From: a virus
DNA: 30,090 nucleotides
Reading direction: 5' to 3' (one strand)
Virus record (IMG/VR): IMGVR_UViG_3300028146_000030
Location: 1-30,090 of that record
Part shown: positions 9,953 to 26,321 of the stretch, in pieces
Position numbering within the stretch: position 1 is the first letter of the stretch
How the letters are laid out: each line of letters starts with the position of its first letter
Made by a program: the position numbers and the translations under genes
Notes under the pieces: model-generated
The model's input: the letters and a program-made list of their open reading frames with translations, nothing else
The model's database searches: none
What the model was told of the DNA's origin: nothing

Positions 9953-11187
9953 TGCAGGACCGCAATCCTTGCCTTGACTTCCGGCTTCCCTATGTGGATT
10001 ACCGTCACGCCTTCCTGCTTGGGGATGTAGCGGAAAGGGTCAATCACTACTGAACCTTCTCTGAACTTTGCGAAGCGATAGTGTTCGTGCTGGCATCCAA
10101 TGAAGAAGAGTCCGGCTCGGTCTGGCACGTCGTCCACTGCGTCATGCGCCACGCCACGCCGTCGAAGAACAGCTGAGAGGAGTAGCGCTGGACTTCCTGT
10201 TTCGATGTTGGTTTCGGGCTTGAAAGCTCGACCGAGAATCGTAATTGGCATTTCATAGGTAGCCTGTTCTTCAATGATGTCGGCCAGAAATTCGCAGTGC
10301 TTTTCTCTCGCGGTCATCAGCGATTCGAAGAAGTCATAGGACAGGCCAATTCGCTTGGCCAGCCAGGAAAGAGCGATGTTGTCTCTTGGGTGGCAGCCTC
10401 CTCCATCTCCCATCCCGGCCCTCAGGTATTTTGAAGAAAGAAGTCTGTGAGTAGAGAGTGAAATCGCTTTGAAAATGTCATCCACGTTCATCTGGCAGCG
10501 GTGCGCCATCTCTCCGTAGAGATTAGCCAGAACCGTCTTTGCGGTGATGAAAGTATTGTAGAAAACCTTTATGCCTTCGGCTGTTCGGATGTCCGTAACG
10601 ACTTCGGGAATCTTTGCGATAGTCCGGTAGAAATGTCGAACGACCTCTACGGAAAACTCATCCGCATTCGTTCCGATAAGCCAAAACTCAGGGTGCAAAA
10701 AGTCTTCATAGACCGTGCCCATGGCAATGAACTGCGGAGAATAAACAAGTTGGAAATTCTTGTCGATTATGGGAAGGATTTCTCTTTCAATCGTTCCCGG
10801 GAGAACGGTGGAAATGACGATACATGGTGTAGGCCGAACGAGCGACGAATTTACGTCATCCACGCAGGCGATAAGGTACCTATAGTCAAAGTCTGCTCTC
10901 GTCTCCGGTAGTGGCGTTGTCCCTTCGTACATCGGATTGTGCGGAGTCTGCGGAGCGATGAATAGGATGTCTGCCCAATCGCAGAGTTCGGGTAGCGAAA
11001 CCATTTCCATCTTGCTCGTAGCCAGAAGCTCTTCAGCATGCTCTTCCTGAAAAGGAATAGAGCCTTGCGCTAGATAACGCTGCGGGGCATCAGATACATC
11101 GAATCCTTTTACGGAATGGCCTTTCGATTCAACCGTGAGCGCGACCATCAAGCCCAGCTTCCCGCATCCTACGAATCCGACTTTCAA
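9949..11187 (-). CDS. UDP-glucose/GDP-mannose dehydrogenase family enzyme
   Basis: The 412-residue protein has the three parts of a nucleotide-sugar 6-dehydrogenase. An NAD Rossmann fold starts MKVGFVGCGKLG (GxGxxG at residues 7-12). The central domain carries AEGIKVFYNTF with the conserved Lys at 207 and GGGCHPRDN with the catalytic Cys at 265 and Asp at 269. The C-terminal UDP-binding domain contains ILGRAFKPETNIETGSPA (about 317-334). Family members oxidise the C6 hydroxyl of a nucleotide sugar to a uronic acid in two NAD-dependent steps. The key residues are kept, so the enzyme should be active; the exact sugar is unknown. The start is TTG at 11185-11187, overlapping the upstream stop as TTGA. 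It is the last gene of the glycan cassette. Confidence 0.85.
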   Translation of the reverse strand: MKVGFVGCGKLGLMVALTVESKGHSVKGFDVSDAPQRYLAQGSIPFQEEHAEELLATSKMEMVSLPELCDWADILFIAPQTPHNPMYEGTTPLPETRADFDYRYLIACVDDVNSSLVRPTPCIVISTVLPGTIEREILPIIDKNFQLVYSPQFIAMGTVYEDFLHPEFWLIGTNADEFSVEVVRHFYRTIAKIPEVVTDIRTAEGIKVFYNTFITAKTVLANLYGEMAHRCQMNVDDIFKAISLSTHRLLSSKYLRAGMGDGGGCHPRDNIALSWLAKRIGLSYDFFESLMTAREKHCEFLADIIEEQATYEMPITILGRAFKPETNIETGSPALLLSAVLRRRGVAHDAVDDVPDRAGLFFIGCQHEHYRFAKFREGSVVIDPFRYIPKQEGVTVIHIGKPEVKARIAVLQ

Positions 11188-13108: not shown

Positions 13109-13815
13109 CGTGGCCTCAGATGCGTCGTTGCGTACATTCCGTTTGGAGTGATGTAGGTAAAGTCCTCGACTTCCAGAAAGTCTCCGACGCGCATCTCCAG
13201 CTTCTCTCGCGTGTACCAGTCGGCGTATTCCCCTACCGCATCCATCGCTTTGACATAGACAGGGAAGGCGGGGTGTTTCGTTACGTCCTCTTCGATGGGC
13301 GGAACTGGAGTCCCTGTTTTGCCTGTCCATGCCTTGTCGGTGTAGAGAAGCAGCCGAATCTCCCCGCCGTCGTTCAGGTTCCCTACCGCCCCTTTGAGGA
13401 TTTCACGGATTTGCGGCGAATGATGCAAAACCCCATTCGAGTAGAAAATATCTACCTTGCCGGGAACGGCAGGCGAGAATCCCGATAGTTTCAGAACTCT
13501 GGTTGCCGCGGCGATATTCGATGGATGAATGTCCGAAATAACCACTTCATTGCCTGACTTGCAAAACTGAAGAGCTTCAATACCGTATCCACACCCAAAA
13601 TCCATGATTCTCTTTCCGTGTGTGGTATCGAGGCCCAGCGTGCTGCGCCAGAGATTTCCGTAGTTTCTCCAACCGCCATAACGAGTCGCCTCAAACTCCC
13701 GAATGAAAGACCTTACCCTGACATCGCTCCAAGCAAGAAACTCTTCGCTGTCGATGTAGCCGATTCCATCCACCGGAATTGCTTTCCACGCGGCAGTATC
13801 TACTTCACACAGCAA
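13105..13815 (-). CDS. SAM-dependent methyltransferase (class I)
   Basis: The 236-residue enzyme has the class I Rossmann motifs. Motif I is MDFGCGYGIEAL (Gly-rich loop at about 72-78), motif II ends a strand with VVISDIHP (the acidic residue binds the ribose), and motif IV is DIFYSNGVLHH. The start is TTG 13813-13815, which has a strong GGAGA six to seven bases upstream and overlaps the previous gene by 11 bases; no ATG or GTG fits. The SNGVLHH motif is the methyltransferase-11 type often found in O-antigen and capsule clusters, where sugars are O- or N-methylated. Placed between two glycosyltransferase genes, it most likely methylates the glycan or its carrier. The substrate is an inference. 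Confidence 0.82.
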   Translation of the reverse strand: MLCEVDTAAWKAIPVDGIGYIDSEEFLAWSDVRVRSFIREFEATRYGGWRNYGNLWRSTLGLDTTHGKRIMDFGCGYGIEALQFCKSGNEVVISDIHPSNIAAATRVLKLSGFSPAVPGKVDIFYSNGVLHHSPQIREILKGAVGNLNDGGEIRLLLYTDKAWTGKTGTPVPPIEEDVTKHPAFPVYVKAMDAVGEYADWYTREKLEMRVGDFLEVEDFTYITPNGMYATTHLRPR

Positions 13816-15427
13816 TGGCGTTCTCCGACGATGGCTTCCATTCCATGCCTATGCGTCTCTGAAGTTTTTGAATCTCTTCCAGCCTCTTGGGAGCCAGCTT
13901 GTCGTAAATCTCTTTCACGTTGTCGCGCCCGCCGCGCTCCATTCGTTCCTTGTGCGTCTTGTCCACTTCGGCTTTGCCGTTAATGAAGTGCATGTGCTCG
14001 GTGACGAACGGAAGGAAGATTCTCCGGTTGATTCTGTTTGCCACTTCGTTCAGCCAGACATCGGCCATGTCCGAAGAGAAGTAAGGAGGGACAACATGCC
14101 CCACAGCATCCTCCCATGCCCTGTGGATGAATCCGTGCGTGCCGAAGGTGTGGCCGTAAACTCCATCGTCTCCGTGAACGAAAGCCAGACGGTCAGGGAA
14201 AGAAGCAAACGCCCTTCGTACCTGGTCGTCCCAACCCTTTGTCCTGAAAACGATGTCGTCCCCCGCCTGCATCAGGATTTCTCCGGTAGCCACTTCAGCG
14301 CACTTGTCCCACATAGCGGATAGAGTTATACGCGGACCTCTGACTACTCGCACATCGGTTATGTCCGTTGCGGCAGGGAAAGTTTCATCATCATCGTCTA
14401 CGTAAAAAACAAACTCAGGGCAGACCGTAGCCGTTGCGGCGGCGGAATCAATCAGGCGTTTGACGTTTGCCGGCCTGCCTCGCGTCGGGCAAAGAATCGA
14501 AATCTTCATTGGCGGAACTTCCATAGGGTATTCCCCTTTAATCTTCGCTCGCAACACACACTCATCCCGGTAAGGCTCAAAGTCCTTGATGGAGTAGGGG
14601 TAGGTTCCCAAATGACCCGGCTGAATCGCGGTATCCACGTAGATGGGAATTTCGCAATACTTCTTGGCGAGCTGGCAGAAGGTTACGTCCTCGCCCATTT
14701 CGATGTCCCCTGCCGGTGTAGGCAGAAAGCGAAACCAGTAACAGGTTTTATCGGCATCGAACTTCTTGAGCCTTGCTTCCTTGAGTTGCTCCAGCCTTTC
14801 TCCAGATAGTCCGTAGAAATCTTTCTCCCACAGACAGTCAAAATAGACCTGAGCAACCTGTTCCAGTGCGCTTCTGGAAATCAGCATCAAGCCCGTACCT
14901 ACGGCATCGGCTTCGATTAGTTTCCCTTCCGGCCATTCCCAGACCTGTTTTGATTCTCCGGTCTTTCTGTCGAAGAATCTCATGTTCGGGATGGGCGGGT
15001 CGTTGCGGCGGGTACAAAGTCCCGCTACGATGTCCTTCTTGTGGGAAAGAAGACGTTCGAGAGTGTCTGCCTCAATCACGATGTCATCGTCAATGAATAG
15101 GCAGTGCGTCCACGGCTTTCCTGTCTTCAACTGCTCTGTGATGAGCCAGTTACGCGACCAATGAACGACGGAGCCTGAAATCGGAGGCCCTTCATAGACA
15201 ATCGCGTTGTCCTTTTTTCTCGTATATTCGACCATGCGAAGAAGGGCAGCACCCATCTTCGGTTCAGGCGCTCTGTAGGTCGGGCAAAGAACCACAACGA
15301 TGGGTTTCTCTTTTTCCGGGCCTTTCTCTCCAGCCAATTCAATGGTTGTCCCAAGAATCTTGGATAGCTCTTCCCTGCCCTTTGGATTTAGAAGTAGTTG
15401 TCTTGCCCGCTTTTCCCAACCTGTCAA
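13805..15427 (-). CDS. Two-domain glycosyltransferase (tandem GT-A modules), 540 aa
   Basis: The start is TTG 15425-15427 with GGAGG nine bases upstream and a TTGA overlap with the zinc-ribbon gene. Earlier codons in this frame lie inside that gene and look non-native. Domain 1 (about 40-300) has PIVVVLCPTYR, the metal motif HCLFIDDDIVIEADTLERLL (DDD 113-115), GLMLISRSALE and MGEDVTFC (catalytic-base region). Domain 2 begins MKISILCPTRGRPANVKRL (about 307), with FYVDDDDETF (344-347), LSAMWDKC and MQAGDDIVF. Each has the start strand and Asp-rich motif of family 2/GT-A enzymes. The fusion could add two sugars in turn, or one module may act as a lectin-like or regulatory partner. It leads the glycan cassette. 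Confidence 0.8.
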   Translation of the reverse strand: MTGWEKRARQLLLNPKGREELSKILGTTIELAGEKGPEKEKPIVVVLCPTYRAPEPKMGAALLRMVEYTRKKDNAIVYEGPPISGSVVHWSRNWLITEQLKTGKPWTHCLFIDDDIVIEADTLERLLSHKKDIVAGLCTRRNDPPIPNMRFFDRKTGESKQVWEWPEGKLIEADAVGTGLMLISRSALEQVAQVYFDCLWEKDFYGLSGERLEQLKEARLKKFDADKTCYWFRFLPTPAGDIEMGEDVTFCQLAKKYCEIPIYVDTAIQPGHLGTYPYSIKDFEPYRDECVLRAKIKGEYPMEVPPMKISILCPTRGRPANVKRLIDSAAATATVCPEFVFYVDDDDETFPAATDITDVRVVRGPRITLSAMWDKCAEVATGEILMQAGDDIVFRTKGWDDQVRRAFASFPDRLAFVHGDDGVYGHTFGTHGFIHRAWEDAVGHVVPPYFSSDMADVWLNEVANRINRRIFLPFVTEHMHFINGKAEVDKTHKERMERGGRDNVKEIYDKLAPKRLEEIQKLQRRIGMEWKPSSENAIAV

Positions 15428-15837
15428 TTTACACTCCCTCCTGAAGCGATAAGCCAACTGGCAATTTCTTCTGCCTTCCGCAAAGCAGCGGCCTTCTCTA
15501 TCTCGTCCATTGGTTCCGTTCGTCTTTCCTTGCGTTTTTTGGCGATGGCTCGTTCTTGAGCAAGCCGTTCCTCTTCCGTAGCTTCTCTTAGCCTTTGTTC
15601 CTGTTCGGCTCGGTACTCCGGCTTCCGTTCGTAGATAAGACCATTCTTGTCGTACTTCTTTTCGTACTCTTCGGGATGGGCTTCCCATCCCGCCCAGATT
15701 TTTTTATCAGAAGGTGCGGTGAATTTCTCGAAACTCTCTGGCGAGCAAGACACACACTCTTCCCGTTGGTTGCCATCCTTGTCCCAGATATTGCGGGAAC
15801 GAACCGTTTCCGCTCCGCAGTTCGAGCATTTAGACAC
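15424..15837 (-). CDS. Zinc-ribbon protein with charged helical tail, 137 aa
   Basis: Starts at GTG 15835-15837, overlapping the previous gene by 8 bases. The N-terminus has two CxxC knuckles: SKCSNCGAE (Cys 4 and 7) and EECVSCSPE (Cys 28 and 31), about 20 residues apart, a classic four-Cys zinc ribbon. Residues about 60-120 are very charged (Glu/Lys/Arg) and strongly helical or coiled-coil, ending IASWLIASGGSVN. It follows the neighbouring zinc-motif protein and precedes the glycosyltransferase. The ribbon may bind nucleic acid or protein. I do not recognise the family; its placement between the capsid and glycan genes does not settle a role. Confidence 0.65.
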   Translation of the reverse strand: MSKCSNCGAETVRSRNIWDKDGNQREECVSCSPESFEKFTAPSDKKIWAGWEAHPEEYEKKYDKNGLIYERKPEYRAEQEQRLREATEEERLAQERAIAKKRKERRTEPMDEIEKAAALRKAEEIASWLIASGGSVN

Positions 15838-16376: not shown

Positions 16377-17585
16377 TCAGGCGTAAGCGCTCAAATCAAA
16401 GAGCCACGCGTGTTTCCGTTCATGCCGGATTTCCCAGCCAAGCTGCGAGCGATACTCATCTGTACGAGTGGTCGAGCCGTCAGGCAGGATGTTCTCGTAG
16501 AGCTTGGTATCGCCAATCAGGTTGTCTCCGCCGCCTTGCAGATAGCGTATTGCTACGCTCGGCAAGTCGATGGAGTAGGCATGGCTAGCAAAGTTGTTGC
16601 CGGTGGAGTAGCCGACATCGCCCGTCCCCAGCCGGTAGTCGTTCGCCAGCATGAACTCCCCAAGAGCCATTTCAAACCGCGCAATCTTCACCCCGAAAAC
16701 CGTGTCGCCCACGCGCGTAAGCAACTTGTTCTGGGAATAAAAGTTAAGCGCCGAAATGACCTTTGGAGCGCAGAGCAGCAACTTCTGCTTTTCTCCGTAA
16801 CGGAACGCCGTCTCTGAGAACGTGTTCCACGTTGTAATGGTCGCTGTAGTGGAAGCGTCCGTCTTGTTGGTGGCGATGCGCGACAGGAAGCCCATCGTCG
16901 TCCAGCGAGAACTAGGCAACGCAAGGGATTCTGAAGCGCGTGACCACAGGCCCGCACCTTCGATTTCCGAGCGGTGCCGGATAAGCGCTTTGACGAGCTG
17001 ATATTTCCGCTCGCCTTGCGGCGCTCCGTACTGCTTGGTCGAAGCTGCTGTGTGTGTGACCTTCACCGGCGTCTTGAAGATTTGAGCGTAGCTAATCTGC
17101 ACGGTTTTTGCCGTGTAGCGCTGTTGCCCAACGTTGTCATCTTCCTTGAACGCCGAAGCGAGTACGCGGAGAGACCCGGTAGCAGGCAAAGTGTCTGCGC
17201 CGGAACCTCCTACGCCTCGCGTGATGGTCAGGGTATTGGTTGAAATGGCCGTGATGAGAAACACTTCCGGGGCCGCGGACGAGGACTGTGCTTTGGGCAC
17301 AGCCACGATGTCTCCGACTCCGAAGATGGTTCCATCCGCCACGAGGATGTTGGTTGCAACCGAAGTGTAGTCTGTGGTCTGCGATGCGTAGCCCCACAGG
17401 GAAACTTCCGTGTCCTCAACCCACTCAAAGCGTGGGCCGATAGTCGGCTGTTTCCGCTTGGCTACGTTGGTGAGCACAAACAACGGAGCCGCATCCGGTT
17501 CAAGCAATACCATTTGCTCGGAAACGTCGCGGACGTTGGTTGTGTCAACTACGAACTGGTCGAAACTGCGTGAAACTAGTAACAC
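16377..17585 (-). CDS. Major capsid protein, SU10/DUF5309-like
   Basis: The 402-residue protein begins at GTG 17583-17585 with GGAG seven bases upstream. It follows the scaffold-like gene by 17 bases, the expected order. The sequence has the marks of the DUF5309/SU10-type HK97-fold capsid family: an N-terminal segment without long coiled coil, the central SGADTLPATG-type beta-rich insertion around residues 80-145, the helical spine (RKYQLVKALIRHRSEIEGAG), and the C-terminal EYRSQLGWEIRHERKHAWLF segment typical of this family. It would form the icosahedral shell. Recognition is by pattern and context; no structure-level check was possible. A terminator follows directly. Confidence 0.75.
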   Translation of the reverse strand: MLLVSRSFDQFVVDTTNVRDVSEQMVLLEPDAAPLFVLTNVAKRKQPTIGPRFEWVEDTEVSLWGYASQTTDYTSVATNILVADGTIFGVGDIVAVPKAQSSSAAPEVFLITAISTNTLTITRGVGGSGADTLPATGSLRVLASAFKEDDNVGQQRYTAKTVQISYAQIFKTPVKVTHTAASTKQYGAPQGERKYQLVKALIRHRSEIEGAGLWSRASESLALPSSRWTTMGFLSRIATNKTDASTTATITTWNTFSETAFRYGEKQKLLLCAPKVISALNFYSQNKLLTRVGDTVFGVKIARFEMALGEFMLANDYRLGTGDVGYSTGNNFASHAYSIDLPSVAIRYLQGGGDNLIGDTKLYENILPDGSTTRTDEYRSQLGWEIRHERKHAWLFDLSAYA

Positions 17586-17602
17586 TCACTAGCTCCTTCT
17601 CT

Positions 17603-18691
17603 CTAGAGGCGGCCATGATTGCTGTCGTACAGTTCCATCGTGTCCTCATCGAAGAGGTCACTGTTGGTCTGGAAACGACCTGCTTTCTGCTGACCACCGC
17701 CAGCGGCTTTAGATTGCCCGGAGCCGAGATTCCCCGCGCTTCTGCGGACATCGGCGCGTCGTGCGTTTCTTGCACCCGCTGCGGCTGCTTGCTGGAGCAA
17801 CTGTGGATTGACGTTCTGGCCGGAGGCTATCTTTGCCAGCATCGCGTACTTTCGTTCGGCGTTCTGCTGTGCGGGCAAGGGCCGTCCCTGCCCATCGGTG
17901 AACTGCATGTCATCAAAACCCGGTATGCGAGAGGCCGCTTCACGGAGCTTAGAAGAAAATTCCTTCGTTCCGTAAGCAGGCAGGCTGGCAAACGCCGGTT
18001 CTGAATTGCGCACGCGGTCCCACGCCATCGCATGAGAGCTGCGGTCGTACATATCACCGAAACCAGGGAAGGCTGTATTCAGGACTCCTGACAGCTGAGC
18101 CTGAAGCATATCCGGCAAAAACGTGTTCACCATGTTGAGCATGTATTTCGAGGTGACTTGCGCGAGCGCTTGCGGCTGCTGTTCAAGGGGAAGATTCCAA
18201 ACCCCCATGAACTCGCCGTGGAACGCTTTGGCTACTTCTGGGTCTGTGCGTTCCGCGACCACGCGAGTCAGATTCTGGAAATGCTGCTCACGGCTGAGCT
18301 GCGGCTGCTGCTGGGTTGGTTCCGGCTGCGCTTCCGGCTCAGGCTCGAATTGCTCCTGCTGCTGCAACTGCTGCAAGTAAATATCGGAATTGATTTTGTC
18401 AATGACGAGCTGCTTCAGCTGTGGGTTAGCTTGCCATGCCTCGTCAAGGCCATACCGCGTCGCATAGCGCTGCAAAATCTCATCAGGAAAAATCTTGTCC
18501 TGCTCGCTAGGGAGCCAGTTCTCGACTTCTTCCTGTGATTCTTGCTGCTCTTGCTCTAACGGCTGCCCTTCGGCTTCAACATCCTGCGTTTGCTCGGTTT
18601 CGGGTTGCTCAACCGCAGTTTGTTGTTCTTCCGGGCCAAGAAGCGATTCCGCAATCGCATCCTGTGTTGGTGCTTCTGTTACGTCTGCCAT
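17603..18691 (-). CDS. Putative scaffolding protein
   Basis: The 362-residue product starts at ATG 18689-18691 with GGAG six bases upstream. The first 60 residues are acidic and Glu/Gln-rich, and about 95-135 is a Gln/Pro/Glu-rich low-complexity stretch (YLQQLQQQEQFEPEPEAQPE). A helical middle follows, then a C-terminal Arg/Lys/Ala/Gln-rich part (ARNARRADVRRSAGNLGSG). An acidic front, helical body and basic C-terminus just upstream of the capsid gene is the usual profile of internal scaffolds, whose C-terminus binds the coat protein. No protease motif is present. The assignment rests on composition and position. Confidence 0.65.
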   Translation of the reverse strand: MADVTEAPTQDAIAESLLGPEEQQTAVEQPETEQTQDVEAEGQPLEQEQQESQEEVENWLPSEQDKIFPDEILQRYATRYGLDEAWQANPQLKQLVIDKINSDIYLQQLQQQEQFEPEPEAQPEPTQQQPQLSREQHFQNLTRVVAERTDPEVAKAFHGEFMGVWNLPLEQQPQALAQVTSKYMLNMVNTFLPDMLQAQLSGVLNTAFPGFGDMYDRSSHAMAWDRVRNSEPAFASLPAYGTKEFSSKLREAASRIPGFDDMQFTDGQGRPLPAQQNAERKYAMLAKIASGQNVNPQLLQQAAAAGARNARRADVRRSAGNLGSGQSKAAGGGQQKAGRFQTNSDLFDEDTMELYDSNHGRL

Positions 18692-18720
18692 AAACTACTC
18701 CTTCGCCGGGTTGGTTCCGG

Positions 18721-19056
18721 CTACTCGCTTTGGGTTGGTCCCAAAGAAACTGGTTTTCCTTGACCGGCAAGTCGCCGCTGCAGGTCTTGAATTAGGCTCA
18801 GCGCGGCATTGAACTCGTCACGGCTTACGCCCTTCGCCAAATCAAATGGAGCCACGCTCGGCGCGACAGACGGAATCGTGGCGTGAGGCGCATCCGTGCC
18901 TGCCACTTCGACCGGATACAGCGCTTTCGTCACCTGCACCCCGGACTGGCTCGCCACACCGAAATGCGTGGCCGCTTCCACGTCCGTAAAAGCCGCTACA
19001 AATCCCGACTTGGGTTGACCGTTTTCCTGATAATTGACTCTGAATACGCCTCTCAT
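18721..19056 (-). CDS. Small protein between portal and scaffold, 111 aa
   Basis: Start ATG 19054-19056, ATGA overlap with the preceding gene. The N-terminal 45 residues look like a small beta-rich domain (VFRVNYQENGQPKSGFVAAF, VEAATHF). Then comes a Pro/Ala/Val-rich linker (PSVAPSVAPFDLA) and a C-terminal helix (DEFNAALSLIQDLQRRLAG). The first domain weakly resembles the 58-residue protein at 22482-22658 in layout (F/Y-K/R-V-x-Y ... V-x-A). No known family is recognised. It may be a minor head or scaffold-associated protein. Confidence 0.55.
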   Translation of the reverse strand: MRGVFRVNYQENGQPKSGFVAAFTDVEAATHFGVASQSGVQVTKALYPVEVAGTDAPHATIPSVAPSVAPFDLAKGVSRDEFNAALSLIQDLQRRLAGQGKPVSLGPTQSE

Positions 19057-19268
19057 ATTTCTCCTTTTGCGCCTTGCATTTGCTCTTGAGCGAACTGAAT
19101 CATATCCCTCAAGGAATCCTCGTAGGCTTCTACCTTACCCGCCAGTCTAGCCTCTTTCATCGTGTCACGAATCGGTTGTCTTACCGCTCGCAAGAGCATC
19201 TCCATGCTTTCCCGCTTCCGCTCCTCAAAGAACGCTTCAAGTGCAGGTCTGAATAGTGGGTCTTGCAA
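19053..19268 (-). CDS. Small helical protein after the portal gene, start uncertain
   Basis: The coordinates use the only conventional start, TTG 19266-19268 (71 residues), which has no ribosome-binding site. The frame stays open upstream for 16 more protein-like codons (including LLRLNESQTLHDA) to an ATT at 19314-19316. AAGGGAG lies six bases before that ATT, an almost ideal Shine-Dalgarno site. I think the true product is about 87 residues with an AUU start, overlapping the portal end by 26 bases. The protein is Glu/Arg/Met-rich and alpha-helical (EAFFEERKRESMEMLLRAV), with no catalytic motif. By position it may be a portal- or scaffold-associated protein; the function is unknown. Confidence 0.5.
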   Translation of the reverse strand: MQDPLFRPALEAFFEERKRESMEMLLRAVRQPIRDTMKEARLAGKVEAYEDSLRDMIQFAQEQMQGAKGEI

Positions 19269-19290
19269 GGCATCATGTAAAGTCTGCGAC

Positions 19291-21546
19291 TCATTTAGAC
19301 GAAGAAGGGTTGGAATTGCCTACTCCCTTCGCCATCGGAGTTGTCGGCTCGTCGTCCGCACTCTTCGTGCTCATCAGATTGTCGGCATGGTCAGAAGCCG
19401 TAGACAGTTTCTCGATTCCCTTAAGCGTATGGTCTATGTTCACTTCTTCCTGCGTCTGCTGCGAAACAGGCTGGCCGGTAATCGACTGGAAGAGCTGCGT
19501 CTGAACTTCTGGCGGAAGCTCCGGCACCTTCGCAGCCACGGTCACTGTCACCTTTGGCGGTGGAGGAACGGGGGGTTTCGGCGGAGGCACTGCCTTGTCC
19601 GCATCCACCCCCTTGATGGTCGAAGCGAAGTTCTTGGCTGCATAATACGGGTCAACCACATTCGGCATTTGACCCGCCATCTCGACCAGCTGCAAAGCTC
19701 CTGTTCTGCGAATATCGTCATCCACGGAAAGCATGGACATTGCGGCAGGTTCTACCTGAATCTCCTGCTGAATCTCCATGAAGTCCAGATTGACCGAAGA
19801 TGCTTTTCCGTAACGCTGACTTAATCCTTCGACTTGGCTAGAGTACTTCCCGGCAATCTGATAGGGTTTGTATCCACTGGGGCTTTGTTCGTCCTGCTCC
19901 GGCTCGGTCTGCTGTAGCATCGCCAGTTTTTTCTCACCAGACTCTTTGAGGTACCAGTTGAGCGAATCCATTTCGAATTGTGTTAGCGCGTCAGCGCTCT
20001 TGGCTGCCAGCACTGCTGTGGTCGCTGTTTTACCTGCTTGCGGATTCGATTCCGTTCCTGTCTCCACGTTCGTCAGATTCGGTTCAGCTAGCGCCATCAT
20101 CCGCATGTTCTGCGCTTCTTCTTCAGTTGCGCCCGATAAGGCTGTAGCGTAGTGCCCCATGTTTTCTATAAGCGGGGCTAATGCTTCCGGGTCGCGCATG
20201 AAGATTATCCGGAATAAAGCCCTGTCTACCTGTTCATCGGGAATGTCCGCTCCCGTCTTGGCTTTCATCAAAGGCCGAAGAATATTCGCAACCAAATCGC
20301 GGCGCGAGCCGACAATTGCGTTGTGCAAAAGCCAAAGATGCCGGAGAAGAAGCGGTGTAGAGTCGCCATAAGCCGTCAGAAGGTCGAACATGGGAACGAG
20401 TTCCGTGTAGCAGGACTTTCCATACAAGTCCCACGGATAAGGCATCTTCCCTAGATGAACTTTTTCGTTTCCCACCCATTCAATCCAGAATTGCCCGTCC
20501 TTGTCTTTCGTGTGGCATTCCAGAATGTCGTATCGCTTACCCTTGATGAGCTTTGTCGGGAAGAGAGGTAGGGTTTGACCAAGAGCATTTGTCCGTAAAC
20601 GGCTTCTCAGGTCGAAAGGCTGTTGCTGGTAAATCGGTTGCCACGTCGGCATGTCCGAAAGTTCTTTGATGGCTTCGTGGTTGAAGATAGGGAGTTCGGT
20701 CTGCCCGTCCTGCGGGTCGATGTACGTCTTTTCGCCCATCTTCTTGAGCCAGACATCTGACTCGAAATAGTTCTCAATCGTCCAGCCAGAAACGACTCCA
20801 CTCGCTGCACCTGGTTCTATGAAGTAGTCGCCAATGAATACGTTCTTACTGACTGGCCCTTCGAACTGGCTGACCTTCTTCGGAAGCTGCGTTGTGTTTC
20901 CGTACCTAGCGATTGCCGCAGACTTTTCGTCGTCGCTAAGTTCTTCCTCTCCGCCTTGCGTGTTGTCCGTAGCGTCAAGATTACGAAGGTCGCTGCGGCT
21001 TAGCGAATCCGTTCTGCGGAAGAACTTTCTTGTCACCTCGACTGTGTCCCAGAAGAGCTTTGATACTCCCAGTCCGAACGTCTGGGCGCTCATCACTGTT
21101 TTGCGATGCTCCAGAGCTTCTCCGCTTCTATCGAATTGCTGGTAAGCCCAAGCGGTCAACCTATCGCCAAGTTGCGTGTTTCCACCTTCCGCTACCGTAT
21201 AATTTATTTGCGGCGGATTGGCCGTAAGTCTCGCCGTTTTTCTGCGGATAATAAGGCTAAGTTCCGGCATGGCAACGTTGGTGCGCGTCTTGTCCTCAAC
21301 CATGTTCCCGGTTTTATCCTGAACCATGATGGGCTTCGTTCTACACTTCGATGCGCGGTATACGTCTTCCCATTGGTCCCAATAGTTGATTTGCATGTAG
21401 CGGCGGGATTCGTTGCGACGGTCTAAAATGTCCGCTACGGTCGGAGGAGTCTTGCGGGAACGGCGCTTGCCGGAACCTTGCGGCGGAGCGGCTGCATCGG
21501 GAGTTTGTTTGGAAGTTCCGGGGATTCCGCCAGCATCCATCGGCAT
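19291..21546 (-). CDS. Portal protein
   Basis: The 751-residue protein starts at ATG 21544-21546 directly after the terminase stop (TAAATG). Its size and order (after the terminase nuclease, before scaffold and capsid) match podovirus/P22-type portals. Portal-like features include the N-terminal helical part (NESRRYMQINYWDQWEDVYR), NVAMPELSLIIRRKTARLTA, and the wing-to-stem stretch with YGDSTPLLLRHLWLLHNAIV and RRDLVANILRP. The C-terminal crown is Gln/Pro-rich, with a Pro/Lys-rich segment (PPPKPPVPPPPKVTVT). The portal is the dodecameric DNA channel at one capsid vertex, to which terminase and then the adaptor dock. Confidence 0.75.
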   Translation of the reverse strand: MPMDAGGIPGTSKQTPDAAAPPQGSGKRRSRKTPPTVADILDRRNESRRYMQINYWDQWEDVYRASKCRTKPIMVQDKTGNMVEDKTRTNVAMPELSLIIRRKTARLTANPPQINYTVAEGGNTQLGDRLTAWAYQQFDRSGEALEHRKTVMSAQTFGLGVSKLFWDTVEVTRKFFRRTDSLSRSDLRNLDATDNTQGGEEELSDDEKSAAIARYGNTTQLPKKVSQFEGPVSKNVFIGDYFIEPGAASGVVSGWTIENYFESDVWLKKMGEKTYIDPQDGQTELPIFNHEAIKELSDMPTWQPIYQQQPFDLRSRLRTNALGQTLPLFPTKLIKGKRYDILECHTKDKDGQFWIEWVGNEKVHLGKMPYPWDLYGKSCYTELVPMFDLLTAYGDSTPLLLRHLWLLHNAIVGSRRDLVANILRPLMKAKTGADIPDEQVDRALFRIIFMRDPEALAPLIENMGHYATALSGATEEEAQNMRMMALAEPNLTNVETGTESNPQAGKTATTAVLAAKSADALTQFEMDSLNWYLKESGEKKLAMLQQTEPEQDEQSPSGYKPYQIAGKYSSQVEGLSQRYGKASSVNLDFMEIQQEIQVEPAAMSMLSVDDDIRRTGALQLVEMAGQMPNVVDPYYAAKNFASTIKGVDADKAVPPPKPPVPPPPKVTVTVAAKVPELPPEVQTQLFQSITGQPVSQQTQEEVNIDHTLKGIEKLSTASDHADNLMSTKSADDEPTTPMAKGVGNSNPSSSK

Positions 21547-22485
21547 TTAGTAATTTATCCCCACGGCGATTGGTTTCCAGCTACTCGTCATCTTGCGTTC
21601 TTTGATGTACTCCGGCTCAGACATTGCGAGATATTTTAGACAATCGGTCACATGGTTCCGCTTAGATTGCGCCTTGCCGGTCGGGTCGGAACGTTCCGCC
21701 ATGATAGGTGTCAGCTGCTGGAAGCGATTGGTCTTGAGTTCGTGAATCAGTTCCGGGCAGCGGTCTTGGAAAATGTGCAGCTTGGACTTTGGCTTGAACG
21801 TTCCATCCGCCTGCTCCACATCTCTTGGCTTTAGCCATTGATTCACGCGTTCCGGTCCAGCCAGATTGTCTTTGATGCAGTCCTTGAACTTCCAGCCGCC
21901 AAGCTCCTCGAACCGTTTCTGGAAGTTGTACTCCGGCTTTTCATCGAAGAAGCCTTGCCCCATTGCTCTTGCAGCATAGTCAATCACCCGCGTGTAGATG
22001 TCTTCCGCTTTCCCTTCGTTTTCCGGGTTGTCTTCGCCTTCTAACCATTGGACGGTTTCGACAAATTGCTTGATGCTATAACGATTGTCGTCCTCGGGAA
22101 CATTGCCTCGTTGTCCATAAATCTTGCTAGGCCAAAGCTCACGATAAGCCCAAGGCTCGCCCCACTTATCCATCGCAATCCATAATGCAGCGTGAGGAAC
22201 AACAGGGTGAGGGTCGAGGGCAAAAAAGCGAGTCCAATCTGAAGGAATAGGGAAGCTGTTTTCAAGCGTGGCTTCCTCATGTAGCTGATAGACAAGCGTT
22301 CCGAGCTTGGCACTGAAGTTGATTTCATATTCCTGCTCGTAATCCGCAACATTCGTCATTGCCTCCTTTTGCTTTGCCGCCCACTCTGGCGTCTTGTCGG
22401 AGTCAGCTGAATAATGCAGCCGGAAGATGCTGATGTCGTGCGGATTTTTCCAAGTGCTGATTCCGGGATGGGGAAATTCAATCAT
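21547..22485 (-). CDS. terL: Large terminase, nuclease half (C-terminal part, separate gene)
   Basis: The 312-residue protein starts at ATG 22483-22485 in an ATGA overlap. The segment FRLHYSADSDKTPEWAAKQ is the typical sequence just past the ATPase domain of large terminases. The RNase H-like nuclease domain follows: first metal aspartate in RFFALDPHP (D91), a second acidic site near YTRVIDYAARA (D169), and a third in NHVTDCLKYLA (D281). It lacks any Walker motif. The ATPase half is a different gene 2.9 kb upstream (25403-26083); the two sum to about 538 residues, the size of one normal TerL. The nuclease would cut the concatemer at packaging, so it must pair with the ATPase half in trans. 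The interruption is genetic, not a simple frameshift. Confidence 0.75.
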   Translation of the reverse strand: MIEFPHPGISTWKNPHDISIFRLHYSADSDKTPEWAAKQKEAMTNVADYEQEYEINFSAKLGTLVYQLHEEATLENSFPIPSDWTRFFALDPHPVVPHAALWIAMDKWGEPWAYRELWPSKIYGQRGNVPEDDNRYSIKQFVETVQWLEGEDNPENEGKAEDIYTRVIDYAARAMGQGFFDEKPEYNFQKRFEELGGWKFKDCIKDNLAGPERVNQWLKPRDVEQADGTFKPKSKLHIFQDRCPELIHELKTNRFQQLTPIMAERSDPTGKAQSKRNHVTDCLKYLAMSEPEYIKERKMTSSWKPIAVGINY

Positions 22486-22658
22486 GAGCCGACGATGATG
22501 TTGTGCTGAATGACCGAAGCCGTGACATGCTGGTTGAAATCAGCATCCGCCGTCTTTGCCGCGTCTACGGCGTTCTTTTCCGTCGTGGCGCTCACCACGA
22601 CCGTCTTAGATGCCGTTCCGCGCTTGCTTACATACGTCACTTTGTAGAGGTCGGCCAT
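22482..22658 (-). CDS. Small protein between inserted block and terminase nuclease, 58 aa
   Basis: A short frame starting at ATG 22656-22658 with AGGAG five bases upstream. It runs 58 codons to a TGA that overlaps the terminase-nuclease ATG (ATGA). The sequence (YKVTYVSKRGTASKTVVVSA, ATTEKNAVDAAKTAD) has a strand-strand-helix look with many Val, Thr and Ala. Its good ribosome-binding site and tight coupling support a real gene. It has a general likeness to the start of the 111-residue protein at 18721-19056. The function is unknown. Confidence 0.6.
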   Translation of the reverse strand: MADLYKVTYVSKRGTASKTVVVSATTEKNAVDAAKTADADFNQHVTASVIQHNIIVGS

Positions 22659-22667
22659 GTTCTCTCC

Positions 22668-23132
22668 TCATTCACCATAAAAAGCTAATGCTGCCCGCGT
22701 CTTGGGCTTCTTGGTTGCAATTGGGTTGCTGTGTGCAGGCGTCCGTGTCTGTGGGCTAATCCGGCTGGAAGCGCCACGAGGGAGAACCTCGGCTTGGCCT
22801 GTGGATTGCCCGGTCAGGTTCGCCATAGCGTTGTTCTGTACGGGGGTAAAGCTGCCAGCATTGGCTGCTCCCGATGTTCCCCGCGCCGAGGACGGCCTAT
22901 CCTGTACCCTCGCCATGCTTGCTATCGTTGGGCCGGTATGCTTGCTCGCTCCTAGAAGCGGCTGGCGGAAGTTCTGTGGGCGTGGAGCTAATTGGCCCGC
23001 CCCCCTGTGAGACTGCTCGGTGGTCGCATTCCGGCCACCTTTATTCTGCCATTGAATGCTCTGGCCTCTTCCATCCCCGGCTGCATCGCCTGTCTGCGTT
23101 GCTGGCACAAACGATTGACTACGCTTCGCCAT
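22668..23132 (-). CDS. Disordered basic protein ending in FYGE, 154 aa
   Basis: Start ATG 23130-23132 has AGGAG five bases upstream and overlaps the previous gene by 14 bases. The product is rich in Ser, Gly, Gln, Ala, Pro, Arg and Thr with no hydrophobic core (for example HRGAGQLAPRPQNFRQPL), so it is probably disordered. It ends RAALAFYGE, a tail shared with the 83-residue virion-type protein (NNLAFYGSANG) and the 166-residue neighbour (SFYGEA). The codons differ (TTT TAT GGT here, TTC TAC GGG in the 83-residue gene). The function is unknown; a virion or scaffold-associated role is possible. Confidence 0.6.
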   Translation of the reverse strand: MAKRSQSFVPATQTGDAAGDGRGQSIQWQNKGGRNATTEQSHRGAGQLAPRPQNFRQPLLGASKHTGPTIASMARVQDRPSSARGTSGAANAGSFTPVQNNAMANLTGQSTGQAEVLPRGASSRISPQTRTPAHSNPIATKKPKTRAALAFYGE

Positions 23133-23619
23133 AAAAGCTCCTGTTCCGCTTCACGCTCGATAGATTCTGCGCTCCCGCTTTACGCGCCGGTGGAGGGAAG
23201 CCCATTCTCCCGCCAATCTGGAATTTCTGATTCGGCAATTTGGAGTAGCCAACAGGCGAGCCAGGAGGCAAAGCCTTTGCCGTTACGGTACTGCCAGACT
23301 TACCCGCATAGACGCCTTTGGGATTCGCTACGCTCTCGCCACCAGGCTTCGCGCCTTTGGGACTGGTAGGCGTCGGCATCGCCCCAGTCTGCATCTTGTT
23401 CTTAAAGGGACTCGGGGCCTCGGAAATGAAGCGCTGCTCATCGCGGCTCGTTTCCTTTGCGTCAGGAACGATAGGCCGCTTCCTGAAGTCGTATTCTGGC
23501 CGCGCTTTCGTCTTGAACTTGTTGCTGGCTGGCTCCGCTTGGCCTGAACGCATCTTGCCGGTATTTACGCGCTGCACGCCAACACTGTGCCGCCCCTTCA
23601 TTGGGTCTCTGCCATTCAT
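23119..23619 (-). CDS. Disordered basic protein ending in SFYGEA, 166 aa
   Basis: Start ATG 23617-23619, ATGA overlap with the phosphatase-like gene, with GAGGTGA just upstream. It is rich in Lys, Arg, Pro, Ser and Gly with few hydrophobic residues (KPGGESVANPKGVYAGKSG, FPPPARKAGAQNLS), so it is probably disordered and basic. It ends KRNRSFYGEA. In this gene part of the FYGEA coding also serves as the start region of the next gene (AGGAGCTTTTATGGCG), so its FYG could be coincidental. No catalytic motif was seen. The function is unknown. Confidence 0.6.
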   Translation of the reverse strand: MNGRDPMKGRHSVGVQRVNTGKMRSGQAEPASNKFKTKARPEYDFRKRPIVPDAKETSRDEQRFISEAPSPFKNKMQTGAMPTPTSPKGAKPGGESVANPKGVYAGKSGSTVTAKALPPGSPVGYSKLPNQKFQIGGRMGFPPPARKAGAQNLSSVKRNRSFYGEA

Positions 23620-24146
23620 AGTTTCACCTCTTGAACTTGCCCTGCTTTGCCGATGCTCCTGAACATGGGAACCTTTGCCGCGTCGCCGCCCTTTTGGCTA
23701 TAGTCCCAGGAAAGCGAGTGCTGCGAATGCCCTACAACTACTTCGCCCTCTTTGAGCTTCTTGACGAATGCCGTGAACCGTCGCAGCACGTCGTTCTTTG
23801 ATTCTCCGCCCGGTATCTTGCGGTCAGGCCGTGAACTGAAGAAGTTTAGGAGCGGTTCGATGCTCTTGGTCCTCGCTCCGCTCATGCTGCCCAAATCCCA
23901 AGGAATCAGCGCTTCTTCCACTACAACCGGTGCTCCGGTCTCTTTGCCGATAAGCTGTGCTGTCTCAAGCGCTCTTTGTCTAGGTGAACTGTGAATCTTC
24001 TTGACTTCCTTGCCTTTGAAACTCCTGGCGATCTGTTTTGCCCGGTAACGCCCGCTCTCAGCAAGAGGAGGGTCGAGATGCCCATGAATGCGCTCCTCTT
24101 TGTCCATCTTCGTCTCAGGATGCGTCACTAGCCATGCTCTGGGCAT
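23616..24146 (-). CDS. Degenerate histidine-phosphatase (phosphoglycerate-mutase-like) protein
   Basis: The 176-residue protein starts at ATG 24144-24146 with AGGA seven bases upstream. The fold's landmarks are present: first strand AWLVTHPETKMD where the family normally has L-V-R-H-G-E-T, then HLDPPLAESGRYRAKQIA, SSPRQRALETAQLIG (usual S-x-x-x-R-A-x-Q-T-A), PWDLGSMSGA, and VVVGHSQHSL (second catalytic His). The catalytic His is kept, but R-H-G is replaced by T-H-P, so the phosphate-binding Arg is missing. It may have altered specificity or be a non-enzymatic binding protein. It sits within the block separating the two terminase halves. No substrate can be named. Confidence 0.72.
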   Translation of the reverse strand: MPRAWLVTHPETKMDKEERIHGHLDPPLAESGRYRAKQIARSFKGKEVKKIHSSPRQRALETAQLIGKETGAPVVVEEALIPWDLGSMSGARTKSIEPLLNFFSSRPDRKIPGGESKNDVLRRFTAFVKKLKEGEVVVGHSQHSLSWDYSQKGGDAAKVPMFRSIGKAGQVQEVKL

Positions 24147-24301
24147 TCGGCCGTCCTGACGTTGTAGAGATGCAGCATCGCCTTCAATTCTTCGGCTGGA
24201 ATAAATCCTTCAACATCAAGGGCTTCTGTGTCTGGATTCCAGAACATTACGCCTATGAGCACGCGCTTCTCATCCGGTGGTAGATCGACGGAAATCTTCA
24301 A
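24128..24301 (-). CDS. Small protein, 57 aa
   Basis: A short frame starting at TTG 24299-24301 with AAGG five bases upstream; the TTG overlaps the previous stop as TTGA. It ends with TAG at 24128-24130, overlapping the next ATG by 19 bases. It reads LPPDEKRVLIGVMFW, then DVEGFIPAEELKAMLHLYNV, which looks like a compact alpha/beta mini-domain. It fills a gap that would otherwise be empty in a tightly packed operon. The function is unknown. Confidence 0.55.
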   Translation of the reverse strand: MKISVDLPPDEKRVLIGVMFWNPDTEALDVEGFIPAEELKAMLHLYNVRTAECPEHG

Positions 24302-24501
24302 AACTGCCTTGCGCCCTTTTCTCTGGCATACTCACAGGTTCCACAGGAGAATAGCCTTGCGCCCTTGTCAGGCTCAAACAGATTGCAGCATCCGAGCTTC
24401 TTGCTGATACCGCCAGCGACCTTGACCCGCACACAGTCTCCGTCTTTTACTGCCCCTGATAGCTCCATATACCCAGCTATTTTTGAATCAGTTCGGTCCA
24501 T
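24298..24501 (-). CDS. Cys-rich small protein, about 67 aa
   Basis: I use ATG 24499-24501; a GTG two codons earlier (24507) is equally possible and neither has a clear ribosome-binding site. The product has five cysteines: one in DGDCVRV, two adjacent in KLGCCNLF and a CxxC in FSCGTCEYA. The CC...CxxC arrangement, 14 residues apart, suggests a zinc or iron-sulfur site. It follows the homing endonuclease gene with a 14-base overlap. The family is unknown. Confidence 0.5.
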   Translation of the reverse strand: MDRTDSKIAGYMELSGAVKDGDCVRVKVAGGISKKLGCCNLFEPDKGARLFSCGTCEYAREKGARQF

Positions 24502-24901
24502 GTGCACCGAACTGAAGCGGCTTCCAAGAATAGTTCCCTCTCTGCTTAGCCGCCTGAGAAATCGTAACCCGGTTAGCGTGAGCCTTTAGTGCTTCTTCAA
24601 TCTTCGCGGCGCGGCGAGCGCCCATATATGGGAGGATTTGGCCCATTATAGCGGCAGCCCTGTCACCGCAAATGTCCGTGAAGAATACATCTTTCTTGGG
24701 CAGTCCATCTTGGCGAATACCGCCGCTTCTCATTCGCGCCCGACTGCTCATTATCTCAGCAGCGCGTTGCACTATATCCCCGTCAGTCATTTGCAGTTTG
24801 ATGCTGATGGCGCACGCATTCTTCCCGCGCTTTCGGATGCTAAAGCAGCCTTCGCCTTCGAGCAGTCCAGCCAACCAAATAATCTGCTCTTTGTCAGTCA
24901 T
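24488..24901 (-). CDS. LAGLIDADG homing endonuclease (single motif)
   Basis: The start is ATG 24899-24901, which has GGAGA six bases upstream and overlaps the methyltransferase stop (ATGACTGA). A start four codons earlier lacks such a site. The protein is 137 residues with one LAGLIDADG motif near its N-terminus, IIWLAGLLEGEGCFSI (catalytic acidic residue in E-G-E-G). A beta-strand set follows (ACAISIKLQMTDGDIV), then FFTDICGDRAAAIM. Single-motif members act as homodimers, cut long DNA sites and spread their own gene. It is encoded as a free-standing ORF, not inside an intein, in the block that separates the two halves of the large terminase, so it is a likely agent of that interruption. Confidence 0.8.
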   Translation of the reverse strand: MTDKEQIIWLAGLLEGEGCFSIRKRGKNACAISIKLQMTDGDIVQRAAEIMSSRARMRSGGIRQDGLPKKDVFFTDICGDRAAAIMGQILPYMGARRAAKIEEALKAHANRVTISQAAKQRGNYSWKPLQFGAHGPN

Positions 24902-25415
24902 ACTGTTCTCCATGTGGCTGGTACTTCGGCGGTTTCGGGATTGGCTTCTCGCGCATCATCTGGAATCTGACGTAGGCCGCTACTCGAACGGGATGCAACT
25001 CACTTCCTTGCTTTCTGAACAGGACGAGTCGCTGGCTTTCTGCGGTTCCAATGGGAGCAACCATTCTTCCGGTATCCCCAAGCTGCTCAATCCATTCTCT
25101 TGGAACTTCTTCGAGTCCGCAGGTGGCAATGATGGCCGTGAATGGAGCGAAGGCAGGTAAACCATATTTCCCATCTCCTGTATGCAGAAATACGCAATCC
25201 CCGGTAATTTTTGTGCTGTCTACCCACGGCTCCAGCTCAATCGAGTGTACCTCCGCGCCAGTATCCGCAAACTCCTGCGTCATTGTGCCTGAGCCGGTGC
25301 CTATCTCAAGCACCTTGTCCGCTGGCGTGAGCTGTAAAAGCTCCAGAATTAGCTTACGCACTTCAGGGCTTGGAATCGTTCGTCTCCCGTCGAATGTGGG
25401 CGCTAAAGCGAGCAT
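24894..25415 (-). CDS. Protein-L-isoaspartate methyltransferase-like protein
   Basis: The start is ATG 25413-25415, inside the last codons of the terminase ATPase gene (13-base overlap, GGGGA nearby). The longer frame upstream reads terminase DNA out of frame. The 173-residue product has PCMT-family features: FDGRRTIPSPEV before motif I, VLEIGTGSGTMTQEFA (motif I, residues about 36-51), SIELEPW (motif II acid), and CGLEEVPREWIEQLGDTGRM (post-II; PCMTs have P-x-x-L-x-x-Q-L-x-x-G-G-R). The usual enzyme repairs isoaspartate in damaged protein. A phage copy in this position is unusual; its target might be phage or host protein, or another small molecule. It opens the block that splits terL. Confidence 0.7.
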   Translation of the reverse strand: MLALAPTFDGRRTIPSPEVRKLILELLQLTPADKVLEIGTGSGTMTQEFADTGAEVHSIELEPWVDSTKITGDCVFLHTGDGKYGLPAFAPFTAIIATCGLEEVPREWIEQLGDTGRMVAPIGTAESQRLVLFRKQGSELHPVRVAAYVRFQMMREKPIPKPPKYQPHGEQYD

Positions 25416-26083
25416 TGGTCCCCGAACCATCCTGGTCCAGCAGAACTGATTGCAATGATTTGCTTTGCCACCGGAGAAGCCGCGTTGTAGCACTGCTCTG
25501 CTTCAGGCAGAAACGCCGCCTCGTCCATCACATAAATCGTCGGGTGAAACATTCTAATCTTGTGCTCGCCCTTTGGGATACCGAACACTCGGCCACCATC
25601 TGCCCATTCCAAGCTGAGTTGACTCGCTTCGCCCAATAAAGGATGTCTGCTCTTGAGCCACGGCTCCTGGTTGCGGTACAGGCACTCCGCGTAGCCCACG
25701 AGCTGTTTGGCCTTCTCTTCCGAGTCCGTCTGCACAATCACTTCCGCCTTGAACCACTGCGCCCGGTGCGTTGCCCACACCATCGTCGCCCATGAAGTCA
25801 GCATCTCCCGCGTCTTGGGAATGAAAATACGCGGCTCCGCGGCCAAAGCCTGAAACAAAGGCACAAAATAGCTCTTACGCGGAAAGGGAGCGCGATATTC
25901 CAGCCCTTGCTGAAGATAATGAGGATTCTCTGTCTTAGTCCAGTTCTGCGCCCAATAGAGCGGGTCTCTTTTACAACGCTCATTCTTTACGTCCCAGCGC
26001 TTCGAGAGCAGATTCGAGAGCAGATTCGATAAGTCTATCTGCTTCTTCGAGTTGTCCATCGCTGACGTTTGTGAGGTCAACAT
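25403..26083 (-). CDS. terL: Large terminase, ATPase half (N-terminal part, separate gene)
   Basis: The 226-residue protein carries the terminase ATPase motifs: an adenine-side motif (DPLYWAQNWTKTENPH), a degenerate Walker A (FIPKTREMLTSWATM, about 87-101), Walker B with catalytic Glu (TIYVMDEAAF, D187, E188) and the coupling motif (IISSAG region, 209-216). It stops at GWFGDQCSL, exactly where a whole TerL would run into the linker and nuclease. That nuclease is a separate gene at 21547-22485. The stop is real and overlaps a methyltransferase start. The start is uncertain: ATG 26083 or ATG 26059, both weakly supported, giving an 80-104 base overlap with the TerS-like gene. It would power DNA packaging together with the other half. 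Confidence 0.72.
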   Translation of the reverse strand: MLTSQTSAMDNSKKQIDLSNLLSNLLSKRWDVKNERCKRDPLYWAQNWTKTENPHYLQQGLEYRAPFPRKSYFVPLFQALAAEPRIFIPKTREMLTSWATMVWATHRAQWFKAEVIVQTDSEEKAKQLVGYAECLYRNQEPWLKSRHPLLGEASQLSLEWADGGRVFGIPKGEHKIRMFHPTIYVMDEAAFLPEAEQCYNAASPVAKQIIAISSAGPGWFGDQCSL

Positions 26084-26321
26084 GCTCGTGTATCACCGTT
26101 CCTGAGTGCTTTACTTCAACGGATTTGCCGTAGCGCCATTCTACCCACTTACCGGCCATTGCTCCCGCTACTTGCGGCTGTTTCTTGTTGTTGAGCAAGC
26201 GACAAATGAGTCTTTCCATTGCCTCTGGTCCGCCAGCCTTCACAATGTGCTTTTCGACCCTTTGGGCGAAGCACCTCAAGTTGTCCAAGTCGTCTGCGTT
26301 GAGTCTGCCTCTTGTGTCCAT
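25980..26321 (-). CDS. Putative small terminase subunit, 113 aa
   Basis: Start ATG 26319-26321. The protein is helical with a middle segment (AMAGKWVEWRYGKSVEVKHS, then TVIHEHVDLTNVSDG) that resembles the linker-to-beta part seen in many phage TerS-like proteins (alpha-helical DNA-binding front, then W-R-Y-G-K and a beta strand, then an acidic tail). It precedes the ATPase half of the terminase, the usual order. It would recognise the packaging site. The tail contains ESALESALEAL, encoded by a tandem 12-base duplication. The family assignment is by context and pattern only. Confidence 0.5.
   Translation of the reverse strand: MDTRGRLNADDLDNLRCFAQRVEKHIVKAGGPEAMERLICRLLNNKKQPQVAGAMAGKWVEWRYGKSVEVKHSGTVIHEHVDLTNVSDGQLEEADRLIESALESALEALGRKE
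26001..26024. repeat. Tandem 12-base duplication in the TerS/TerL overlap
   Basis: Two direct copies of ttcgagagcaga lie head to tail, followed by a partial third (ttcga). Because 12 is a multiple of three, both overlapping frames stay open (ESAL repeated in the TerS-like protein, SNLL repeated in the terminase frame). Confidence 0.8.

Follow-up and report, generated by a model that had tools for sequence, protein, structure and literature searches.

How can a phage package its DNA with a large terminase subunit (TerL) that is encoded by two separate genes? This question is raised by the IMG/VR virus record IMGVR_UViG_3300028146_000030, which was analyzed over a stretch of 30,090 bases (the window). 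Two open reading frames (ORFs) with separate start and stop codons were found for an ATPase piece (N-half) and a nuclease-containing piece (C-half), with 2.9 kb between the N-half stop and the C-half start. The two products sum to 538 aa, compared to 532–610 aa in eight fused T4-type TerLs. Both observations agree with the first-pass annotation of this DNA, which had claimed two separate ORFs adding up to one TerL of normal length. We consider it probable that they represent a permanently two-piece TerL, which originated from one ancient fission followed by a later insertion, and whose reassembly in trans into an active motor we infer.

Identification of both pieces as parts of TerL

Neither the search of the window record with PF03237 nor the phmmer searches of the single halves against the PDB gave a match. 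As single-sequence searches were weak or empty, profiles were needed to recognize the halves. The profile built from 24 N-halves matches T4 gp17 at 1.1e-7, and the C-half profile had no match among the PDB sequences. Using hhalign, the N-halves were aligned to gp17 108–274 (99.4%) and the C-halves to gp17 299–422 (92%). In the phrog_2 profile, the N-halves match positions 262–402, and one C-half matches positions 430–510. The comparison with TerL profiles that the first-pass annotation had suggested thus places both halves on gp17.

The AlphaFold model of the N-half has a pLDDT of 87, and its residues 25–226 superpose on gp17 101–310 (VIA Z 20.2). For residues 61–292 of the C-half model, the superposed structures were D6E TerL 233–416 (Z 18.2), the P22 nuclease (Z 15.7) and gp17 361–562 (Z 12.6). 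Three invariant Asp residues (D91, D169 and D281) fit the acidic residues of an RNase H-fold nuclease, so that the nuclease identity proposed for the C-half is retained. Both pieces are parts of TerL, comprising the ATPase core and the TerL nuclease fold.

The ATPase motifs that had been described for the N-half were found in part. Walker B (D187-E188) and the coupling motif III (S213-S214) are present and invariant in the N-halves, whereas the Walker A region is deviant: GK[ST] is missing and K-x-R-x-M-x-x-S-W is found instead, with K90, R92, S97 and W98 invariant in all 24 sequences. Some TerL proteins tolerate deviations in this motif; therefore, the missing canonical GxxxxGK[ST] does not exclude a TerL. 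ATPase and nuclease are usually expected on one polypeptide of a TerL. Here they were located on separate ORFs in every contig tested, and the system was therefore filed as a two-piece TerL variant.

Position of the break

The last elements of the N-half are the motif III strand and a single short helix, and its end corresponds to gp17 ~310 or P74-26 ~195 of about 250. The nuclease domain starts at C-half residue ~61 (gp17 ~361), and the ~60 residues before it therefore correspond to the remaining ATPase domain and the hinge. Based on the models and profiles, the break is placed inside the ATPase domain, just after the coupling motif III and about 50 residues before the nuclease domain, and not at the domain linker as was first assumed. 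The junction is shared by the relatives, in which the N-half stop lies within a few codons of SSxxxGxF and the C-half starts a few codons ahead of a conserved beginning of the type (N)(I/V)EFPHxG.

The hinge is indispensable in T4, where the separated ATPase and nuclease domains keep their activities but do not translocate DNA (PMC9958956). According to the models, the hinge of the split TerL remains with the nuclease piece and the end of the ATPase domain. Since the cut precedes the hinge, these three elements would stay covalently joined, preserving the link that is essential in T4 gp17.

Distribution of the split and the role of endonucleases

Searching with the single halves and with the profiles built from them yielded relatives on contigs from many metagenomes. 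A fused gene was found in none of the 43 viral contigs carrying an N-half, some of which are near-duplicates. A separate downstream C-half ORF could be identified in 41 of the 43 within the fetched stretch and in the 42nd (L008) within its longer locus, while the remaining contig ends 257 nt past the N-half. The gap between the halves ranges from about 1.2 to 5.4 kb. In L045 and L047, which are ~27% identical to the window, the break is the same without any insert: the genes overlap by ATGA and TAATG and the frames of the halves are offset by −1.

Neither viral contigs nor phage records yielded a close fused relative of the split TerL, and a search starting from the TerL of L087 returned the same fused type only. 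As the same split recurs in independent metagenomes, it is not due to a misassembly. Relatives with the same or a fused arrangement had been named as a check in the first-pass annotation; more than 40 contigs share the split and none is fused. The split is lineage-wide and far beyond chance.

An Acidobacteriota metagenome-assembled genome carries both halves, on different contigs, which hints at Acidobacteriota as host of the lineage. By inspection, L079 encodes a tyrosine-recombinase-like integrase (record G005, 18332–19546). This gene suggests a temperate lifestyle for at least one of these phages.

An insertion could also have caused the split. A homing endonuclease would then have landed in terL and divided the gene, as in Aeh1 nrdA, with halves that kept working. 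This origin appears improbable to us, even though precedents are described for T4-like phages (PMC2988022) and a LAGLIDADG-like gene is located between the halves of the window. This gene was found in the gap of the window and of L006 only, whereas endonuclease VII was found in L002 and HNH_3 in L041. The gap endonucleases are thus sporadic, belong to different families and are mostly absent, and the conserved content consists of a PCMT-like methyltransferase, a histidine phosphatase and small proteins with a common C-terminal tail. Furthermore, L045 and L047 are split without an insert. Neither the label "homing-endonuclease block" nor an endonuclease insertion as the cause of the split, both taken from the first reading of the locus, could be maintained.

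Integrity of the two genes

In unsaturated pairs, dN/dS was 0.09–0.15 for both halves, which indicates purifying selection. Together with the invariant catalytic residues, this supports the earlier statement that the locus is not a pseudogene.

The split genes could be remnants, with packaging performed by another, unrecognized terminase; this TerL is very divergent and the other proteins of the records are largely unannotated. Such a replacement is very unlikely, however, given the strong conservation and purifying selection of both halves and the searches for other candidates. The fused T4-type TerL profile matched 14 of 15 records, eight of them at two places (profile ~28–207 and ~232–291) and six at the N-half alone, and a third or fused TerL copy was not detected with it in these 15 records. 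A phrog_2 search of the same records gave no credible further TerL, as its one stray match was by inspection a RecA-like P-loop ATPase. Three of the records (44–46 kb) have terminal repeats of 120–127 bp, consistent with complete genomes. The second intact terL that had been considered for this phage was thus not found.

Two further candidates were rejected. A programmed −1 frameshift is possible in L045 and L047 (49- or 16-nt window) and impossible in the window phage, where the halves are 2.9 kb apart. A conserved Cys near the N-half end had raised the idea of a split intein, which was discarded because relatives such as L026 (DQVAR*) and L037 (NESKR*) lack the Cys and the N-half is not followed by intein sequence.

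Several phage groups are known to have TerL genes interrupted by spliced group I introns (PMC11878797, PMC12363816, PMC10448857), and the earlier annotation had also raised splicing as an alternative. Rfam introns were not matched in the window region (E≤1) or in nine relatives (gathering thresholds), and a Pfam scan of the window did not match intein families. At most a few residues separate the motif III helix from the end of the N-half, and the C-half opens directly with TerL sequence. The least probable explanation is therefore that the halves are exons joined either at the RNA level, with the gap genes lying inside a group I or II intron, or at the protein level by an intein, since the C-half has a usable start at the junction that often overlaps the preceding stop, the gap-flanking sequences differ among relatives, the gap is gone in the out-of-frame halves of L045 and L047, and the terminal Cys of the N-half is not universal.

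Apparent exchange of halves between phages

The trees of the two halves are in conflict. With the N-half data, clades found in the C-half tree are rejected at p 3.9e-5 and 0.002; conversely, two clades of the N-half tree are rejected with the C-half data (p 0.013 and 0.007), with p-values that are somewhat optimistic as the tested clades were named after the trees had been seen. The conflict involves L006–L008, L012, L016, L023 and L024 against the window; for L006, the C-half is 88% and the N-half 60% identical to the window. From these conflicting trees, the partners appear to have been exchanged independently between phages, so that N- and C-halves would reassort.

Proposed origin and working of the two-piece motor

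The split N-halves form one clade versus the fused T4-type TerLs (support 100/98), and the support in the nuclease (C-half) tree was 60/52. The split without an insert in L045 and L047, the most distant of the relatives, suggests that the fission came first and the insertion later, which is the simplest order.

The proposed course would begin with a single ancient fission just after motif III, inside the ATPase domain. It would have produced two polypeptides, of which the N-piece has the nucleotide-binding core, Walker B and motif III and the C-piece the last ATPase core strand, the hinge and the RNase H nuclease. The genes may initially have been overlapping and translationally coupled, as L045 and L047 still show, and in the branch to which the window belongs, other genes may have gathered at the junction afterwards. 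The two proteins would be made separately and would most likely complete the ATPase sheet non-covalently, one C-piece per N-piece, and would then assemble at the portal into a packaging ring of the usual kind. Inferred here are the expression of the two pieces, their co-assembly and stoichiometry, and the packaging activity. Of the original idea of a motor assembled in trans after a mobile insertion, the two-polypeptide motor is probably correct as the best reading, whereas the insertion as its cause is not supported, given the insert-less split of L045 and L047.

Several points weigh against a functional motor from a single fission. For expression and activity, the evidence is based on sequences and models. 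Residues 1–60 of the C-half, modelled alone, reached low to moderate confidence (block pLDDT 40–75), and the Walker A without GK[ST] is unusual. The single fission is derived from the N-half tree, given the values of the C-half tree, and sampling may have missed closer fused relatives. The exchange of partners could mean a looser coupling than assumed. Separately expressed T4 ATPase and nuclease domains, although cut elsewhere, do not translocate DNA (PMC9958956).

Genes between and around the halves

The gene content of the gap (Table 1) was found as first described, with a PCMT-like enzyme, a LAGLIDADG endonuclease, a histidine phosphatase and small proteins in tight packing, where the LAGLIDADG match is weak and below the cut-off. 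Methyltransferase and histidine phosphatase genes recur in the gaps, together with one to four small basic tailed proteins in most genomes; within the window-like clade, the PCMT is a conserved gap gene.

Table 1. Genes at the split terL locus and the major capsid gene further downstream, listed in minus-strand order.
Feature	Position	Strand	Evidence and remarks
113-aa gene	25980-26321	-	Possible small terminase, by position alone; no family match; overlaps N-half start
TerL N-half, ATPase piece	25403-26083	-	226 aa; C-terminal end ...SSAGPGWFGDQCSL*
PCMT-like methyltransferase	24894-25493	-	Pfam PF01135 8.5e-27; likely start ATG near 25415, overlaps N-half 3' end
LAGLIDADG-type endonuclease-like	24488-24913	-	Pfam LAGLIDADG_1 1.3e-3, under curated cut-off; PHROG 'HNH endonuclease' 1.1e-14
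Small Cys-containing protein, 69 aa	24298-24507	-	Conserved in several relatives including L043 of another clade
Small ORF, 57 aa	24128-24301	-	No family match
Histidine phosphatase superfamily protein	23616-24146	-	Pfam PF00300 (His_Phos_1) 1.9e-28; conserved in most window-like relatives
Basic small protein	23119-23619	-	C-terminal tail ...RNRSFYGEA
Basic small protein	22668-23132	-	C-terminal tail ...AALAFYGE
58-aa protein	22482-22658	-	Stop overlaps C-half ATG
TerL C-half	21547-22485	-	312 aa; residues 1-60 probably last ATPase part and hinge, 61-292 RNase H-like nuclease
Putative portal, 751 aa	19291-21546	-	Position directly downstream of C-half; evidence from relative L044
Major capsid protein, SU10 type	16377-17585	-	Pfam PF17236 4.2e-29; phrog_1328 3.4e-16

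A family of ~60–75 aa proteins immediately precedes the C-half and is present there in multiple copies in some cases (window 22482–22658; L008 7462–8787). A possibly related small protein was observed directly after the C-half of the insert-less L047 (6070–6312). Large proteins with signal-like N-termini were found between the halves or between C-half and portal (L003 9365–11308, L005 5828–7609, L002 record (G001) 17463–19319), two of which had no match in a Pfam scan. For the 751-aa protein, a ~38% identical relative in L044 has a weak, sub-threshold SU10_portal match. Among the virion genes of the window, UDP-glucose dehydrogenase-like (7e-77) and glycosyltransferase-like (2.6e-33) genes were observed at 9949–11187 and 13805–15688 on the minus strand.

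A C-terminal tail shared by unrelated gap proteins

The tail F(Y/F)G(E/D) was found in 60 of 712 in-gap ORFs and in 2 of 2,533 ORFs outside (Fisher p 5e-38); this p-value overstates the difference, as ORFs share a frame set and the genomes are related and thus not independent, but the contrast is still plain. Three near-whole genomes contain only few look-alikes outside the gap. At least 13 families without blastp similarity to one another carry the tail, and nearly all of these proteins are strongly basic; a tag shared in this way would be previously undescribed. It is absent in some divergent lineages (L024, L025 and L120–L123) and in the insert-less L045 and L047.

The tail as a mere by-product of Shine-Dalgarno sequences was rejected: in half of the cases the Gly codon is GGC or GGT, and the F-(Y/F) positions vary synonymously. 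A peptide signal is therefore more likely, and our guess would be a targeting or docking signal. Tentatively, and with somewhat less than even confidence, the locus may be pictured as a trans-completed ATPase motor with reassorting halves and a changeable cassette of tailed proteins, whose tag would attach them to the motor, portal or procapsid and thereby let them accompany the DNA.

Comparison with known systems

TerL commonly serves as a universal marker encoded by a single gene, and its motor is regarded as needing the covalent ATPase-nuclease join via the hinge. A natural, lineage-wide TerL cut before the hinge offers a ready test of the covalent links that the motor requires. TerL length filters and TerL trees may miss or misplace such phages, the latter because the halves give conflicting trees. 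Unexpectedly, the tailed gap proteins offer a lead on what may be a signal for targeting to capsid or motor.

Compared to T4 gp17 and the fused T4-type TerLs (also D6E, P22, HK97 and G20c), the split TerL has the same folds in the same order, Walker B, motif III and an acidic RNase H nuclease. It differs in being two polypeptides instead of one, cut at gp17 ~298–310, and in its Walker A without GK[ST]. The fused TerLs of the uncultured phages MW202524 and MW202497 and of L087, a genome from the phylum of the Acidobacteriota metagenome-assembled genome, have a nuclease part that resembles the C-half (hhalign 8.5e-18 with MW202524/MW202497), and MW202524 and L087 share its DPH-type first Asp motif. 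All of them are fused, and the ATPase part of MW202524 and MW202497 does not match the N-half profile.

A terL interrupted by spliced group I introns has been described for the Bastillevirinae (PMC11878797) and Jug phages (PMC12363816), as has the spliced terL of ICP1 (PMC10448857). There, too, the coding sequence is in at least two pieces. These are rejoined as RNA, whereas here intron signals were not found, the starts are independent and adjacent halves are out of frame in relatives.

Genes in pieces are known from T4-like phages, namely Aeh1 nrdA with mobE, the T4 topoisomerase with mobA and gene 43A/B of phage 25 (PMC2988022). As in these cases, one enzyme is encoded by two genes and would be reassembled. 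The known examples do not include a terminase, result from an endonuclease or untranslated insertion and are confined to one phage or a small group, and a permanently split terminase had no precedent in the literature searched. In contrast, the split described here is lineage-wide, occurs with or without an insert and has no consistent endonuclease. The locus encodes a naturally two-piece TerL with the cut inside its ATPase domain, stably maintained throughout a phage lineage; the best explanation is a motor that is put together in trans, which joins the enzymes encoded by genes in pieces.

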